A stretch of 64,000 bases of DNA from Zobellia galactanivorans (GTDB lineage Bacteria; Bacteroidota; Bacteroidia; Flavobacteriales; Flavobacteriaceae), in the NCBI RefSeq assembly GCF_000973105.1, contig NC_015844.1, positions 1-64,000 of the forward strand, in the 5' to 3' direction. A program made the translations under genes and the position numbers. Below, one piece after another: positions 33,966 to 38,199 of the stretch. The notes beneath the pieces were generated by a model. It was not told where the DNA came from and did not search any database. It was given only the letters and a program-made list of their open reading frames with translations. Every line of letters begins with the position of its first letter. Positions within the stretch are counted from its first letter, which is position 1.

Positions 33966-35858
33966 CTAGTACAAAACCCTAAACTTAATAGTGTTCTCTA
34001 CTTTTTTGAGCGCTTTGATAACATCTTTATTGTACTCCTTATCTAAATCGGTAATCACATAGCCTACCTCGCTATCCGTAGACAAATATTGTCCGGAGAT
34101 ATTCAAGCCGTATTTGGCCAATACCTCATTGATCTTAGCCATAATGCCCGGTACATTCTTGTGTATATGCAAGAAACGGTGTGCGTTCCGTTGTTTTGGC
34201 AAACGGATATTCGGGAAGTTCACCGCATCAACAGTATTCCCTGAATTGATATAATCCATAATCTTGTTCGGAACGAAATCGGCAATATCGCGTTGCGCTT
34301 CTTCGGTACTACCACCAACGTGGGGCGTAAGTATTACATTTTTCAAACCTTGAAGCGGCGTATAAAACTCACCGTTGCTACGCGGCTCTTCTGGATATAC
34401 ATCTATGGCGGCACCGGCAAGTTTACCTGATTTCAAGGCATTGGCCAAGGCATCGATATCGACAACGAAGCCTCTTGACAAGTTAATGAGCATGGCGCCA
34501 TTTCTCATCTGGCTTATTTCACGCTCACCGATAAAATTCTTATTGGCCTTGTTATCATCGATATGTAAGGTAACTACATCGGAAACATTCAATAAATCTT
34601 CTAAGGTATTGCATTTTTTAGCATTACCCATTGACAGTTTATCGTCAACATCATAATAATAAACACGCATACCCACGGCTTCCGCTAAAATGGAAAGTTG
34701 CTTCCCTATGTTACCATAGCCGACAATTCCGAGGTTCTTACCACGCACTTCCCTTGACCCTTCGGCCGTTTTTTGCCATTGCCCGTTGTGGATCTCACTA
34801 CTTCTGGCAAAAACACTTCGCATCAGCATGATGATCTCACCAATGGCCAACTCGACCACGGAACGGGTGTTGCTATACGGCGCATTGAACACTACCACCC
34901 CCTTTTTCTTGGCGTACTGCAAATCTATCTGGGTAGTACCGATACAAAACGCACCGACCACCATAAGTTTGTCGGCCGCATCCAATACCTTTTGGGTCAC
35001 TTGCGTTTTAGAGCGAATACCCAATACGTGTACCCCCTTTATTCTCTCTATCAGTTCGTCTTCCGGTATACTGTGTTTTACAAGTTCTACCGAAAATCCT
35101 TCTTCAGACAAATTCTTAAAAGCGGCTGGGTGGACATTTTCAAGAAGCAATATCTTGATTCTGTTCTTTGGGTATGATATATTACGTGGCAAATCGTTCA
35201 CAAATAAAAATTCATCCATATTAGGAGTTATATAGTCAGCGTTCTGGGCTGCTTTTTCGCGATGTACATTTTCGGTATAAGCAAAGAATTTATCGGCAAT
35301 TCCGGCTTCGCGCATAACGTAATCGCTATAACCATCACCAATAACCTGAACCTCGCCTTCAAGGTTCATTTGCTTAAGACATTCAATTTTTCCGTTATGC
35401 TGTGAAAGTACGTTTTTTGAATCAAACCCGACAATATTTCCTTCTTCATCAAATTCAAAGGTATTGGCATAAACCCTTTCGGATGGAATATTGTACTCCT
35501 TGACGATAGGATCGATAAACTCTTTGAATCCACAAGAAATCACATAAATATCATCTGAAAATTTCTCGAAAAAATCTTTATTGGCAGCAATAGACTTCGA
35601 TATCTTATGACGCAACTCCTCTACTAAGGGGCCTAAATCGTCTTTATGGGCGTTCAACAACTTTATACGTTGCTCCAAGGATTCGGTAAACGATATATCG
35701 CCATCAATTCCCAAATTTGTAATCTCCTGAATACGACGAACGATTTCGTCTCGATCCGACTTGCCTTCCAAGGTCATTTCGGCCAGCACATCTAAAGCTT
35801 CGACCCTTGTTAAGGTACTATCAAAATCGAATATGTATTTCCTACCTGTCTCTACCAT
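33966..35858 (-). CDS. serA: SerB-SerA fusion: HAD phosphatase plus D-3-phosphoglycerate dehydrogenase
   Basis: A 630-residue fusion. Residues 1-225 form a SerB-like HAD phosphatase: D11/D13 in FDFDSTLT, S108 in ISCG, K157 in HNGKIE and GDGYSD at 174-179. Residues 232-550 are a D-isomer dehydrogenase: GYGNIG at 380-385, R462 (LSRG), E490/491 (YPEEP) and H513 (TPHVGG). An ACT domain follows (about 560-630), the usual serine feedback site. Steps 1 and 3 of serine synthesis are thus on one chain; serC is not in the window. All HAD motifs look intact. Monocistronic, with TATTTTTG at 35882-35889 upstream. Confidence 0.94.
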   Translation of the reverse strand: MVETGRKYIFDFDSTLTRVEALDVLAEMTLEGKSDRDEIVRRIQEITNLGIDGDISFTESLEQRIKLLNAHKDDLGPLVEELRHKISKSIAANKDFFEKFSDDIYVISCGFKEFIDPIVKEYNIPSERVYANTFEFDEEGNIVGFDSKNVLSQHNGKIECLKQMNLEGEVQVIGDGYSDYVMREAGIADKFFAYTENVHREKAAQNADYITPNMDEFLFVNDLPRNISYPKNRIKILLLENVHPAAFKNLSEEGFSVELVKHSIPEDELIERIKGVHVLGIRSKTQVTQKVLDAADKLMVVGAFCIGTTQIDLQYAKKKGVVVFNAPYSNTRSVVELAIGEIIMLMRSVFARSSEIHNGQWQKTAEGSREVRGKNLGIVGYGNIGKQLSILAEAVGMRVYYYDVDDKLSMGNAKKCNTLEDLLNVSDVVTLHIDDNKANKNFIGEREISQMRNGAMLINLSRGFVVDIDALANALKSGKLAGAAIDVYPEEPRSNGEFYTPLQGLKNVILTPHVGGSTEEAQRDIADFVPNKIMDYINSGNTVDAVNFPNIRLPKQRNAHRFLHIHKNVPGIMAKINEVLAKYGLNISGQYLSTDSEVGYVITDLDKEYNKDVIKALKKVENTIKFRVLY

Positions 35859-36021: not shown

Positions 36022-36822
36022 TTAATCTAAAAATGAGACCACGGCTTCGGAAAAGGCCTTTGTTTTGTAGGTGCCGTTATGATCACCTTCAACAATGACA
36101 AATTCACTTTTGGGAATCGCCTTATGCAGTTCTTCGGGACTACCATTATCGGTATCCCCATCCCCCGCAATGACCAGTACTTTGGCCTTCACATAGGCCA
36201 AATGGCTTTTTCTGGTGTAAGGTTGGTAGCGCTGTTGTAGATAGAGACTTCTAAAGTCGGCACCTACCGATTTCGCATAGGCTACGGCCTCTTTCGTTTC
36301 TTCGGTGACCCTTCCGGCAAAGGCTTTCATAAATTTAATTTTCCTAGGCCACATATAGTCGGTAAAATCGATGCCCATACCCCCTAAAACCGCCTTTTTC
36401 ACCCGCTTGTCGCGCAACAAAAGTTTTGCCAGCACAATACTGCCCCGAGAATACCCAATGGCCATATATTTTTTTTGCCGCAAGTGCTGCATAAGAAACA
36501 TAACATCCATTACCTCGGCATCAAAATCGTAGCCTTCCTCGGTCTGGGGCTTGTCCGACTCCCCATTACCCCGAAGATCAAGGGCGACGACCCTAAACCC
36601 TTCTTTCAGCAACTGTTTCTTTAGTTCGGTTTTCTGCCAAGATTCCTTGGTATTGATAAACCCATGAATAAGTAAAACTACCTTTCCCTCACCCTCATCG
36701 GTATAAGCAATTTTTGTATCGTCGAAAGAAGTAAAGAATTTGGTCTGGCACCGTGCCGTGACCATTGACAACAAAAAAACGAACGGCAGAAGCAGCCGTA
36801 TCCTTAATTTACGCATTGACAT
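36022..36822 (-). CDS. Exported alpha/beta hydrolase
   Basis: A 266-residue alpha/beta-fold hydrolase with an N-terminal signal peptide (to about 25). The oxyanion segment is LLIHGF, the nucleophile elbow GYSRGS, the acid is probably in AGDGDTDN and the His in VEGDHNGT near the C-terminus. RVVALDLRGNGESDKP is a standard family motif. The substrate is unknown; an esterase role is the default. Its start overlaps the DUF3307 stop by 14 bases, so it belongs to the SatD-DUF3307-hydrolase operon. MRK at 36816 is an alternative start. Confidence 0.9.
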   Translation of the reverse strand: MSMRKLRIRLLLPFVFLLSMVTARCQTKFFTSFDDTKIAYTDEGEGKVVLLIHGFINTKESWQKTELKKQLLKEGFRVVALDLRGNGESDKPQTEEGYDFDAEVMDVMFLMQHLRQKKYMAIGYSRGSIVLAKLLLRDKRVKKAVLGGMGIDFTDYMWPRKIKFMKAFAGRVTEETKEAVAYAKSVGADFRSLYLQQRYQPYTRKSHLAYVKAKVLVIAGDGDTDNGSPEELHKAIPKSEFVIVEGDHNGTYKTKAFSEAVVSFLD

Positions 36823-37507
36823 AAATGATTCCTGTAATTATGGCAAGTCCGAAACTCAACAAGGTTCCTATTAAAATATACTCGGTAAGTTTACGGTTAT
36901 TGCTTTCCTTTAAATCGTTGAACCTAAAAACCGATTTGGCCCCTATCAGAAGACCTATAGCTTCCCACCTTCCCATAATAATGAACATAAGAACGAACAA
37001 CCGCTCTATTATGCCTATATACTTTCCGGCGTTGGGCAATGATTTATGATCCAATTCAATTTTGTCCGACATGGCTTCCAGCAATTTCCCCATGATAATC
37101 GCGGCAGGAGAACTGACGAATACGATCGCAGTGACCAAAGGCCAATCCAACCCTTGAAAAAGAGCCATTGTATGTTCGGTCAGATTTCCGTAATACACAC
37201 AACAATACAACACCAATATATGAAGCACCTGATCTAAAAAGAACGGAACACTTTTAAGCCTGAACCTAGGCGTAACGTACAATTTGGCCAAGTCGATAAC
37301 ATAATGTGAAGCCGCAATGATCAAGGCTATTTTCCAATATTGCAAATCCCACACCAATAGCATGATCAACGCAAAGTGAAGCAAAACATGCAGGTAAAGG
37401 TATCTCGACTTTTCCCTATTTGCTTCCTTATGAATTACCCAACGGCTCGGTTGCAACAAAAAATCGCCAATCAAGTGGGCCAGTAAAAGTTTAGTGAACA
37501 GAACCAT
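36809..37507 (-). CDS. DUF3307 membrane protein
   Basis: A 232-residue integral membrane protein with about six hydrophobic helices. It starts TKLLLAHLIGDFLLQP, with later HVLLHFALIM and ASHYVIDLAKLY, which together define DUF3307: His and Asp residues lie within membrane segments and could bind a metal. It follows the SatD-like gene directly (stop of one and start of the other adjoin) and overlaps the downstream hydrolase. Recurrent association of DUF3307 with SatD is known; its function is not. Confidence 0.88.
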   Translation of the reverse strand: MVLFTKLLLAHLIGDFLLQPSRWVIHKEANREKSRYLYLHVLLHFALIMLLVWDLQYWKIALIIAASHYVIDLAKLYVTPRFRLKSVPFFLDQVLHILVLYCCVYYGNLTEHTMALFQGLDWPLVTAIVFVSSPAAIIMGKLLEAMSDKIELDHKSLPNAGKYIGIIERLFVLMFIIMGRWEAIGLLIGAKSVFRFNDLKESNNRKLTEYILIGTLLSFGLAIITGIIYVNA

Positions 37508-38116
37508 CTAACTTAATTCTTTTAAAGTTTTTGAATAATACGCAAGTAATTCCTGTACCAAATCCAGACGAGCCCGTTTTTGACGTTGGCTTACCGCCGA
37601 CTGCTGAATATTGAGCCTTTCGGCAATTTCGCGTTGCGAAGCATCAGGATAATCTAAAGCCAACACAATAATCTCTGCCGATACAGGACTCCAGTCATCC
37701 ATAAAGTGCAGCGCCAACTTTAACATGAGATTTAAGGTCTCATCAATAAAACCGTTTCCGGTAGCAATGGTCAAATTAAGCTTCTCTTCCTTAAGGGACT
37801 CAAAAGTTCTACCCGACCGATGATAAGCCGGACCGTTGGACTCACTCACTCCGACCCCCTTAAAGGTTTCACTGCCCAAACCAATGCCCATACGAACATC
37901 CAAGCCCTTTACCGTTTTTATCAAGGCCTTTATATGTATGGCCGCACGCAAGGCATCTTCCTTGGCTATTTTCAACTGAAACTCATCACCCCTATAGACC
38001 TCCCAATCGATGGGCGAACTACCAAGCCTAGACAGGTAAGCCTTGAGAATGCCCAACCACTCCGACGAGTTGTGGTTTTCTGAATTAATGATGTCTCCCG
38101 TAATTATTGCTACCAT
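37508..38116 (-). CDS. SatD-like protein with C-terminal HTH
   Basis: A 202-residue protein of the SatD type. The N-terminal 125 residues resemble a class III nucleotide cyclase core: IITGDII (D8), YRGDEFQL (GDEF at 43-46, D44), RMGIGLG, and NGPAYHRSGR with R103 where cyclases carry the transition-state Arg (H99 replaces the usual Asn). Residues about 158-183 (ASQREIAERLNIQQSAVSQRQKRA) form a helix-turn-helix. The cyclase resemblance is my reading, not established knowledge. Its start lies 5-7 bases from the first of three palindromic repeats. It heads an operon with DUF3307 and the hydrolase. Confidence 0.8.
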   Translation of the reverse strand: MVAIITGDIINSENHNSSEWLGILKAYLSRLGSSPIDWEVYRGDEFQLKIAKEDALRAAIHIKALIKTVKGLDVRMGIGLGSETFKGVGVSESNGPAYHRSGRTFESLKEEKLNLTIATGNGFIDETLNLMLKLALHFMDDWSPVSAEIIVLALDYPDASQREIAERLNIQQSAVSQRQKRARLDLVQELLAYYSKTLKELS

Positions 38117-38120
38117 AACT

Positions 38121-38199
38121 ATATAAGCTAAAACGCTAATATATTAAAATATAAGTCAAAAAGCTAATATTTTTAATTATAAGTCATATCGCTTATACA
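38121..38199 (-). repeat. Three palindromic repeats at 28-bp period (candidate operators)
   Basis: Imperfect palindromes of about 20 bp start at 38123, 38151 and 38179, an exact 28-bp spacing. Each has left half TATAAGY and right half GCTWATA around a 6-bp centre; copy 3 is the best dyad (TATAAG ... GCTTATA). The array fills the whole gap between the methyltransferase stop and the SatD-like start. On the minus strand a TTTG in copy 2 and TAGCGTTT in copy 1, about 18 bases apart, could be the promoter, overlapped by the repeats. This fits cooperative repression by an HTH protein, perhaps SatD-like itself. Confidence 0.7.

Follow-up and report, generated by a model that had tools for sequence, protein, structure and literature searches.

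Why should a small protein from a family named after secretion and acid tolerance join cyclase-like motifs to a helix-turn-helix, and why should it be encoded beside a membrane protein? The gene in question, satD of Zobellia galactanivorans, lies at 37508-38116 on the minus strand of the window, by which we mean the whole stretch of 64,000 nucleotides analysed here (contig NC_015844.1, positions 1 to 64,000). Its open reading frame starts with ATG and encodes 202 amino acids, which match the Pfam family SatD (PF16264) at 31.9 bits, above the curated cut-off of 29, and whose closest named relatives come from Zobellia species at up to 98% identity; no NCBIfam family exceeds its cut-off for SatD or for the partner protein encoded behind it. 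The name SatD comes from an operon and reflects no demonstrated function, and the gene was singled out in S. pyogenes as accessory yet essential, according to the passages of PMC11323703 that treat it. Published mentions, as far as the relevant parts of PMC11323703 and PMC10326533 go, give SatD as an acid-tolerance name or as a listed gene. Our search of the open-access literature turned up no paper that treats SatD as a cyclase-fold regulator or as a defence gene, which does not prove that none exists. The reading that we consider best, and hold with middling confidence, is that SatD would be a switch that regulates itself, responds to a nucleotide and controls a membrane effector.

The fold of the N-terminal domain was approached by structure prediction and fold search. 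An AlphaFold2 model built from a 65-sequence alignment (pLDDT 95.4, pTM 0.92) places strand 2-10, helix 21-31, strands 38-41 and 45-51, helix 52-67, strand 73-81, helix 96-111 and strand 115-118 in order, followed by a linking helix and the helix-turn-helix. In a Foldseek search of the PDB, the top match of this model is the adenylyl cyclase Ma1120 (4wpa; best E 1.2e-3), and the 50 matches listed include GGDEF domains, Rv1900c, GTP cyclohydrolase III, Cas10 (Csm1 and Cmr2) and PycC, together with 3onq, a seemingly unrelated regulator. Both the topology and these neighbours agree with a cyclase fold, at weak E-values: none reaches E<=0.001, and the TM-scores of the 50 listed span 0.26-0.44 when taken by query length and do not exceed 0.54 when taken by target length. 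A viral structure library gave a best match of E 0.022, to a phage diguanylate cyclase.

Profile comparisons point the same way. With hhalign, whose E-values here refer to single comparisons, a combined SatD alignment (63 sequences, 58 left by filtering) was set against 30 class III cyclases, 20 of 30 GGDEF and 28 of 30 ACT sequences (12 left out), ACT being a ligand-binding family with a ferredoxin-like fold. The class III set gave the best score (E 5.7e-5, probability 66%, residues 2-103), with D8 aligned on the first-strand Asp and D44 on the hairpin GD, and the GGDEF set followed (E 2.9e-4, probability 41%, residues 2-114), its alignment taking in a GDEF-like hairpin. The controls for the combined alignment gave E 0.23 for ACT and 0.035-0.64 for reversed alignments; ACT ranged over 0.095-0.47 across four forward SatD sets, and ACT and reversed controls together over 0.035-0.64 across all sets. 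Single SatD subfamilies gave E 0.00063 to 0.3, two of the six comparisons (0.2 and 0.3) being no better than controls, and class III and GGDEF compared with each other reach only 0.012-0.025. A cyclase/palm-like domain over residues 1-120 (37757..38116, minus strand) is thus supported as a prediction by the AlphaFold2 model, Foldseek, hhalign and residue invariance. Could the resemblance be convergent, SatD having a ferredoxin-like fold devoid of nucleotide chemistry that binds an amino acid or another protein? The low TM-scores and an hhalign probability of 66% at best would suit such a case, but the same two Asp align with class III catalytic positions and ACT gives no signal, and we hold convergence to be very improbable.

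Is SatD then a class III nucleotide cyclase, as an earlier note on this DNA proposed? The motifs named there are all where it put them: D8 (IITGDII), D44 (YRGDEF), RMGIGLG, and NGPAYHRSGR with H99 and R103. Within the predicted palm domain, D8 stands near the end of strand 1 and D44 in the turn between strands 2 and 3. Among 144 SatD sequences, 139 of them distinct, D8, S12, G43 and D44 are identical in 139/139, and G95 (138), Q47 (137) and K109 (130) are nearly constant. The proposal that both metal Asp are kept is thereby confirmed, at positions that align with the class III catalytic ones, and their invariance indicates strong constraint on both acidic residues. The other two residues to which weight had been given fared differently. 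Position 103, offered as the transition-state Arg, is Arg in just 62 of the 139 distinct homologues, Glu in 45 and Lys in 17, and in two subfamilies, within loci L031-L060, Arg is usual one residue earlier, at 102 (28 of 139). Position 99, where His was thought to replace the usual Asn, is His in 17 of 139, and Asn is absent from the eight residues listed for that position, which cover 132 of the 139 sequences. In the A4 and A5 subfamilies an invariant Arg occurs in the last helix, the place of a phosphate-binding Lys in GGDEF domains.

Pfam gives no match of the window SatD to PF00211 or PF00990 at E up to 10, and no protein of the whole Zobellia genome matches either family at E<=0.001, so SatD may be the only protein of this genome near both. 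The hairpin of the homologues mostly reads RGD[ES]F or LGDEF, and the GG[DE]EF signature is absent; one homologue (L019, 1441-2046, minus strand) has GGDSF, nearer to that signature than the others. The class III proposal therefore survives in its fold and its two Asp and falls in its Arg and Asn positions and in the absence of a PF00211 match; we reject the idea that SatD is a genuine class III cyclase because R103, on whose conservation the earlier note had itself made the claim depend, is not conserved, and nor is H99.

An active enzyme of another kind would still be conceivable: SatD might be a nucleotide cyclase or oligonucleotide synthase whose product gates the membrane partner, with DNA binding serving autoregulation only. 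There is precedent for either sign of such gating, since in Pycsar the cyclase product activates the effector. In Panoptes the product inhibits the membrane partner, according to the portion of PMC12657230 that describes it. The invariance of D8, S12, G43 and D44, the adenylyl cyclases, PycC and Cas10 among the Foldseek neighbours, the membrane location of the partner, and one SatD pair that adjoins a Pycsar operon all speak for catalysis, but the positions of the class III Asn and Arg vary, and the partner has neither a cyclic-nucleotide-binding family in Pfam nor a PADLOC match. We regard this possibility as rather unlikely, and keep to a nucleotide-responsive regulator as the preferred reading.

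What does SatD regulate? The C-terminal helix-turn-helix that the earlier note described is borne out by a Pfam Sigma70_r4 match (E 6.1e-8, residues 147-184), and the sigma70-region-4-like domain as a whole, residues 144-201 (37514..37687, minus strand), is predicted from Pfam, from the AlphaFold2 helices and from a recognition helix that varies with the operator. Upstream of satD in the window stand three 20-bp palindromes spaced 28 bp, putative operators on the minus strand: TATAAGCGATATGACTTATA at 38178..38197, TATTAGCTTTTTGACTTATA at 38150..38169, 28 bp from each neighbour, and TATTAGCGTTTTAGCTTATA at 38122..38141, 5 bp before the ATG.

This spacing recurs widely. We scored pairs of similar palindromes at periods 18 to 60 in the 160 bp upstream of 145 satD genes (143 distinct), a set that leaves out near repeats (L001, L007, L008, L010, L030) and the contig-cut L035. 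A period of 28 or 29 scored best in 119 and its double (56-58) in 18, together 137 of 145 loci, with 8 having neither; 117 upstreams beat all 25 of their own dinucleotide shuffles (28 did not), and 116 of these have that period. The same set of periods, which was named after the data had been seen, was best in 74 of 725 shuffles and in 41 of 314 upstreams of other genes, these last drawn from L061-L140 only; as the loci are related, the counts are not independent trials. By group, the period is found in 52/55 Zobellia/Maribacter loci and the window, in 25/25 Flavobacterium and 24/25 other Flavobacteriaceae loci, in 10/10 of L031-L041 and 17/19 of L042-L060, and in 3/4 viral and 5/6 plasmid loci. 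Eight further plasmid loci, scored against plain shuffles, have it in six cases, including Agrobacterium, Sphingomonas parapaucimobilis and two haloarchaea; it was not found at the Fusobacterium and Sphingomonas insulae plasmid loci.

The palindrome sequence varies by lineage and the spacing is constant. Here the pattern is TATTAGC-N6-GCTTATA; elsewhere the half-sites include GTAATA, GGAAT, CGATA, AGATA, GAAACA and GTTGAA, with GTTCGCC in haloarchaea. Read by eye from a table, the half-site tends to change with the recognition helix: QSAVSQR is mostly paired with CTTATA or CTAATA, AAVSRR mostly with GTAAT or GTAAC, and IWKRR mostly with GAAACA or GATACA, and QSAVNQR, in a divergent subfamily 32-35% identical to the window SatD, also goes with a CTTATA half-site. 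A scan of the 5.5-Mb genome with up to 2 mismatches gave 33 operator matches, vs 65 for a backward-pattern control, and two sites within 300 bp of each other occur only at satD in the whole genome; SatD thus has the look of a regulator devoted to its own operon. DNA recognition by SatD is, from these sequence comparisons, well supported and in our view highly probable. Because the array touches the start-codon region in Zobellia and lies further upstream in Flavobacterium, repression is not certain.

The gene that directly follows satD, at 36809-37507 on the minus strand, encodes a DUF3307 protein whose N-terminal half (37148..37507) is the His/Asp-rich, helical DUF3307 domain (PF11750, by Pfam), and whose C-terminal domain (36809..37060), recognised by a C-terminal HMM, carries the motif GxxIGxxER...AKSxFR...EYxxIGT common to the SatD partners seen. 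An alpha/beta hydrolase gene (36022..36822, minus strand) shares 14 bp with the end of the partner gene; it is accessory, being present in 25 of 80 related loci. The membrane partner beside satD that the earlier note reported adjoins the gene both in the window and in related loci: a membrane-protein gene stands behind satD in all 80 GTDB loci, and 59 of 60 genome-search loci have the partner behind satD on the same strand, L035 ending at the contig end. Some of these partner frames are irregular, starting 254 bp late in L040 and 72 bp late in L025 and falling in two pieces in L020. The partner is likewise behind satD in 4/4 viral contigs, with the L144 frame running off the locus, and in 6/6 and then 8/8 further plasmid loci by the C-terminal HMM. 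The partner HMM used for the 60 genome-search and 4 viral loci was iterated on those same loci; the C-terminal HMM used for L031-L060 and the plasmid loci was not trained on them. An overlap of 4 bp between satD and the partner gene is the commonest arrangement, seen in 50 of the 82 loci (viral loci among them) at which it was measured; starts were chosen mechanically, and L091 and L114 were missed in this count, the partner being found by tblastn in both.

How exact is the association of SatD with DUF3307? DUF3307 occurs in 77 of 296 genomes, and the best 30 of those 77 loci all have SatD upstream. Conversely, an HMM of the last ~80 partner residues matches 29/30 of L031-L060 (E 7e-23 to 6e-3; L035 is cut by the contig end), and an HMM of the DUF3307 half finds nothing below E 0.28 in the same loci. 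The partners of L031-L041, L035 again being cut, give no DUF3307-half match (best E 8), in agreement with Pfam on L031 and L032. The co-occurrence of SatD and DUF3307 named in the earlier note holds in the window, and the partner is better defined by its C-terminal domain. As an exact rule it was rejected, since the 19 loci L042-L060 have a short partner with the C-terminal domain only. At ~105-145 aa, these short proteins make for a minimal form of the module, and five of them gave no Pfam family over cut-off when scanned. Nor does the C-terminal domain itself reach a Pfam cut-off, the best being DUF4153 at 16.5 bits vs 27.

Across 31 diverse long partners, H11, D15, Q19, Q93 and H96 are invariant and H44, H68, D72 and D92 nearly so, and the C-terminal domain adds the invariant G161, G165, E168, R169, K191, R195, E209, Y210, G214 and S218. 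AlphaFold2 predicts an all-helical partner of 11 helices and no strand (pLDDT 89), for which Foldseek found nothing convincing in the PDB (best E 0.69). The DUF3307 half shows a weak likeness to YdjM-like membrane metal hydrolases, hhalign giving E 0.013 for it, 0.29 for its reversed control, and 0.22 and 0.18 for the partner C-terminal half and its reverse.

Where is the pair found? In the family, 43 of 149 genomes have a PF16264 match, and in the phylum 66 of 296, a patchy distribution. These counts are too low, since all 30 DUF3307 loci examined had SatD, and some of their genomes (e.g. G313 and G340) have no PF16264 match in the phylum survey. One carrier of the pair is pEC34A, an E. coli plasmid of 3770 bp, where the two genes fill ~45% of a tiny mobilizable replicon (L145, 1792-3481), a large load for its size; SatD at 94-100% identity is in 6 Klebsiella plasmid records, and the pEC34A pair has no DNA match in complete E. 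coli genomes. Among the plasmid loci examined (14 of 25 matched records), further carriers are plasmids of Pseudomonas fragi, Segatella, Vibrio, Enterobacter, Salinivibrio, Agrobacterium, Sphingomonas and haloarchaea; in Pseudoalteromonas and Fusobacterium the pair is on large replicons that are recorded as plasmids. Four predicted viral contigs of IMG/VR carry it among phage-like neighbours, judged by eye from translations; no match was confirmed in viral-contig scans with the A4 and A5 alignments. The window SatD has no match at E 0.01 in a phage collection in which Acinetobacter phage SH-Ab 15599 has a DUF3307 protein, and Ralstonia phage RsoM2USA also carries DUF3307, according to the relevant section of PMC8504454.

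Some neighbours of the mobile copies are worth recording. On a Sphingomonas insulae plasmid (L302, 2234-6685) the pair directly adjoins a Pycsar operon, the one such case, identified by PADLOC through PycC (E 4e-183), a 2TM effector (8e-74) and E2 (1e-97). DUF4365-domain genes lie near the pair on the Enterobacter (L150) and Agrobacterium (L299) plasmids, the latter also with genes annotated as nucleotidyltransferase-HEPN and antitoxin.

Chromosomal copies keep steadier company. In Zobellia and Maribacter, PGDH behind and RdgB in front are each constant in 54 of 55 loci, and in Flavobacterium the nearest flanking genes of one locus recur in 23 of 24 others. In the window, a 630-aa protein is encoded at 33966-35858 (minus strand), which from its motifs we take to be a HAD-type phosphoserine-phosphatase-like N-terminus joined to D-3-phosphoglycerate dehydrogenase and an ACT-like end; its ACT match (E 3.3e-4) is below the cut-off, and a gene matching it stands behind satD in 54 of the 55 Zobellia/Maribacter loci. 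Clade-constant surroundings count against a purely mobile role of the pair, and the constant place within these two clades resembles that of a housekeeping operon, which speaks against a switch. Might SatD, then, sense a nucleotide or metal without any catalysis, in an operon that serves an ordinary response to envelope or acid stress? The chromosomal constancy would fit, as would the family name and the acid-tolerance association in S. mutans, retold in passages of PMC11323703 and PMC10326533, but the pair is also on a 3770-bp plasmid, on predicted viral contigs and on haloarchaeal plasmids, and we find this explanation unlikely.

In the mechanism that we prefer, the self-regulated switch, satD and the following gene would be a module of two genes that is complete in itself and includes an operator array of its own. 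SatD, probably a dimer, would bind two to four palindromes that follow one another every 28-29 bp ahead of its own start codon, the regular spacing suggesting that neighbouring dimers touch, and this binding would set the level of the operon. The palm domain with its two invariant Asp most likely holds a metal-nucleotide, with turnover or without, and the invariant Ser (S12) would stand where the phosphate loop is expected; nucleotide binding by SatD seems likely to us. The nucleotide state would determine if SatD keeps its hold on array and partner. Once released, the partner, a polytopic membrane protein, may be harmful or growth-limiting, and SatD would therefore work like an antitoxin or repressor. 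We infer the sign of this regulation; the fold class, invariant residues, pair, array, helix/operator agreement and mobility are read from sequence comparison. A harmful partner, argued from the form of the module and by analogy from S. pyogenes, strikes us as evenly balanced. In S. pyogenes, according to the part of PMC11323703 concerned with it, satD is an accessory gene, present in 178 of 249 genomes, and yet essential; an insertion there would probably also silence a gene behind it, and the essentiality may not transfer to this locus.

A wider reading, which we advance tentatively, is that SatD and its partner could be an as yet undescribed mobile system of the guard or abortive-infection type, present in bacteria and archaea alike, in which a palm-fold nucleotide sensor or enzyme doubles as a cooperative repressor on a DNA array and restrains a membrane effector until phage or another stress disturbs the nucleotide pool, as a DNA-binding counterpart of Pycsar and Panoptes. 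The findings suggest a switch that is complete in itself and that, with one membrane protein as its companion, occurs on chromosomes, plasmids and predicted phages in both bacteria and archaea. A cyclase/palm domain within a dedicated transcription regulator would, in our judgement, be an unusual use of the fold. The 28-29 bp array offers a direct binding assay and the invariant Asp pair a direct point mutant, the partner C-terminal domain is a new family to define, and, if the partner is toxic, the whole module would be testable for phage defence.

How does SatD compare with known systems? With class III cyclases (PF00211; Ma1120, Rv1900c) it shares the order of strands and helices, the strand-1 Asp, the Asp of the GD hairpin and the top Foldseek match (4wpa), whereas its Asn and transition-state Arg positions are not conserved, PF00211 does not match and a helix-turn-helix is fused. 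GGDEF diguanylate cyclases (PF00990) resemble it through the hhalign alignment over residues 2-114 and the GDEF-like hairpin, but there is no PF00990 match, usually one G precedes the hairpin Asp, and the output domain is a helix-turn-helix. In working manner the closest are Panoptes, Pycsar and autoregulated toxin-antitoxin pairs, membership being shown in none; PADLOC matches neither SatD nor its partner, and its 2023 library may be without Panoptes models. Type II toxin-antitoxin systems have overlapping or abutting genes, a DNA-binding first gene, palindromic operators and mobility. The SatD pair appears to share these features, the DNA-binding first gene and a putative autoregulatory palindromic operator among them, but it differs in the cyclase-fold domain of its first protein, in a phased array of up to four palindromes and in a partner that is a membrane protein of putative toxicity. 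Pycsar (PycC and PycTM) likewise couples a cyclase-fold protein with a membrane protein, although no Pycsar model of PADLOC matched the pair. In Panoptes, which PMC12657218 also concerns, the passages of PMC12657230 that present it propose an antitoxin-like logic, in which a palm enzyme (mCpol) restrains a membrane toxin (2TMbeta); the SatD module departs from it in its helix-turn-helix and operator array and in a partner unlike 2TMbeta (11 helices, no strand), and has in common with it a small palm-domain protein encoded together with a membrane protein.
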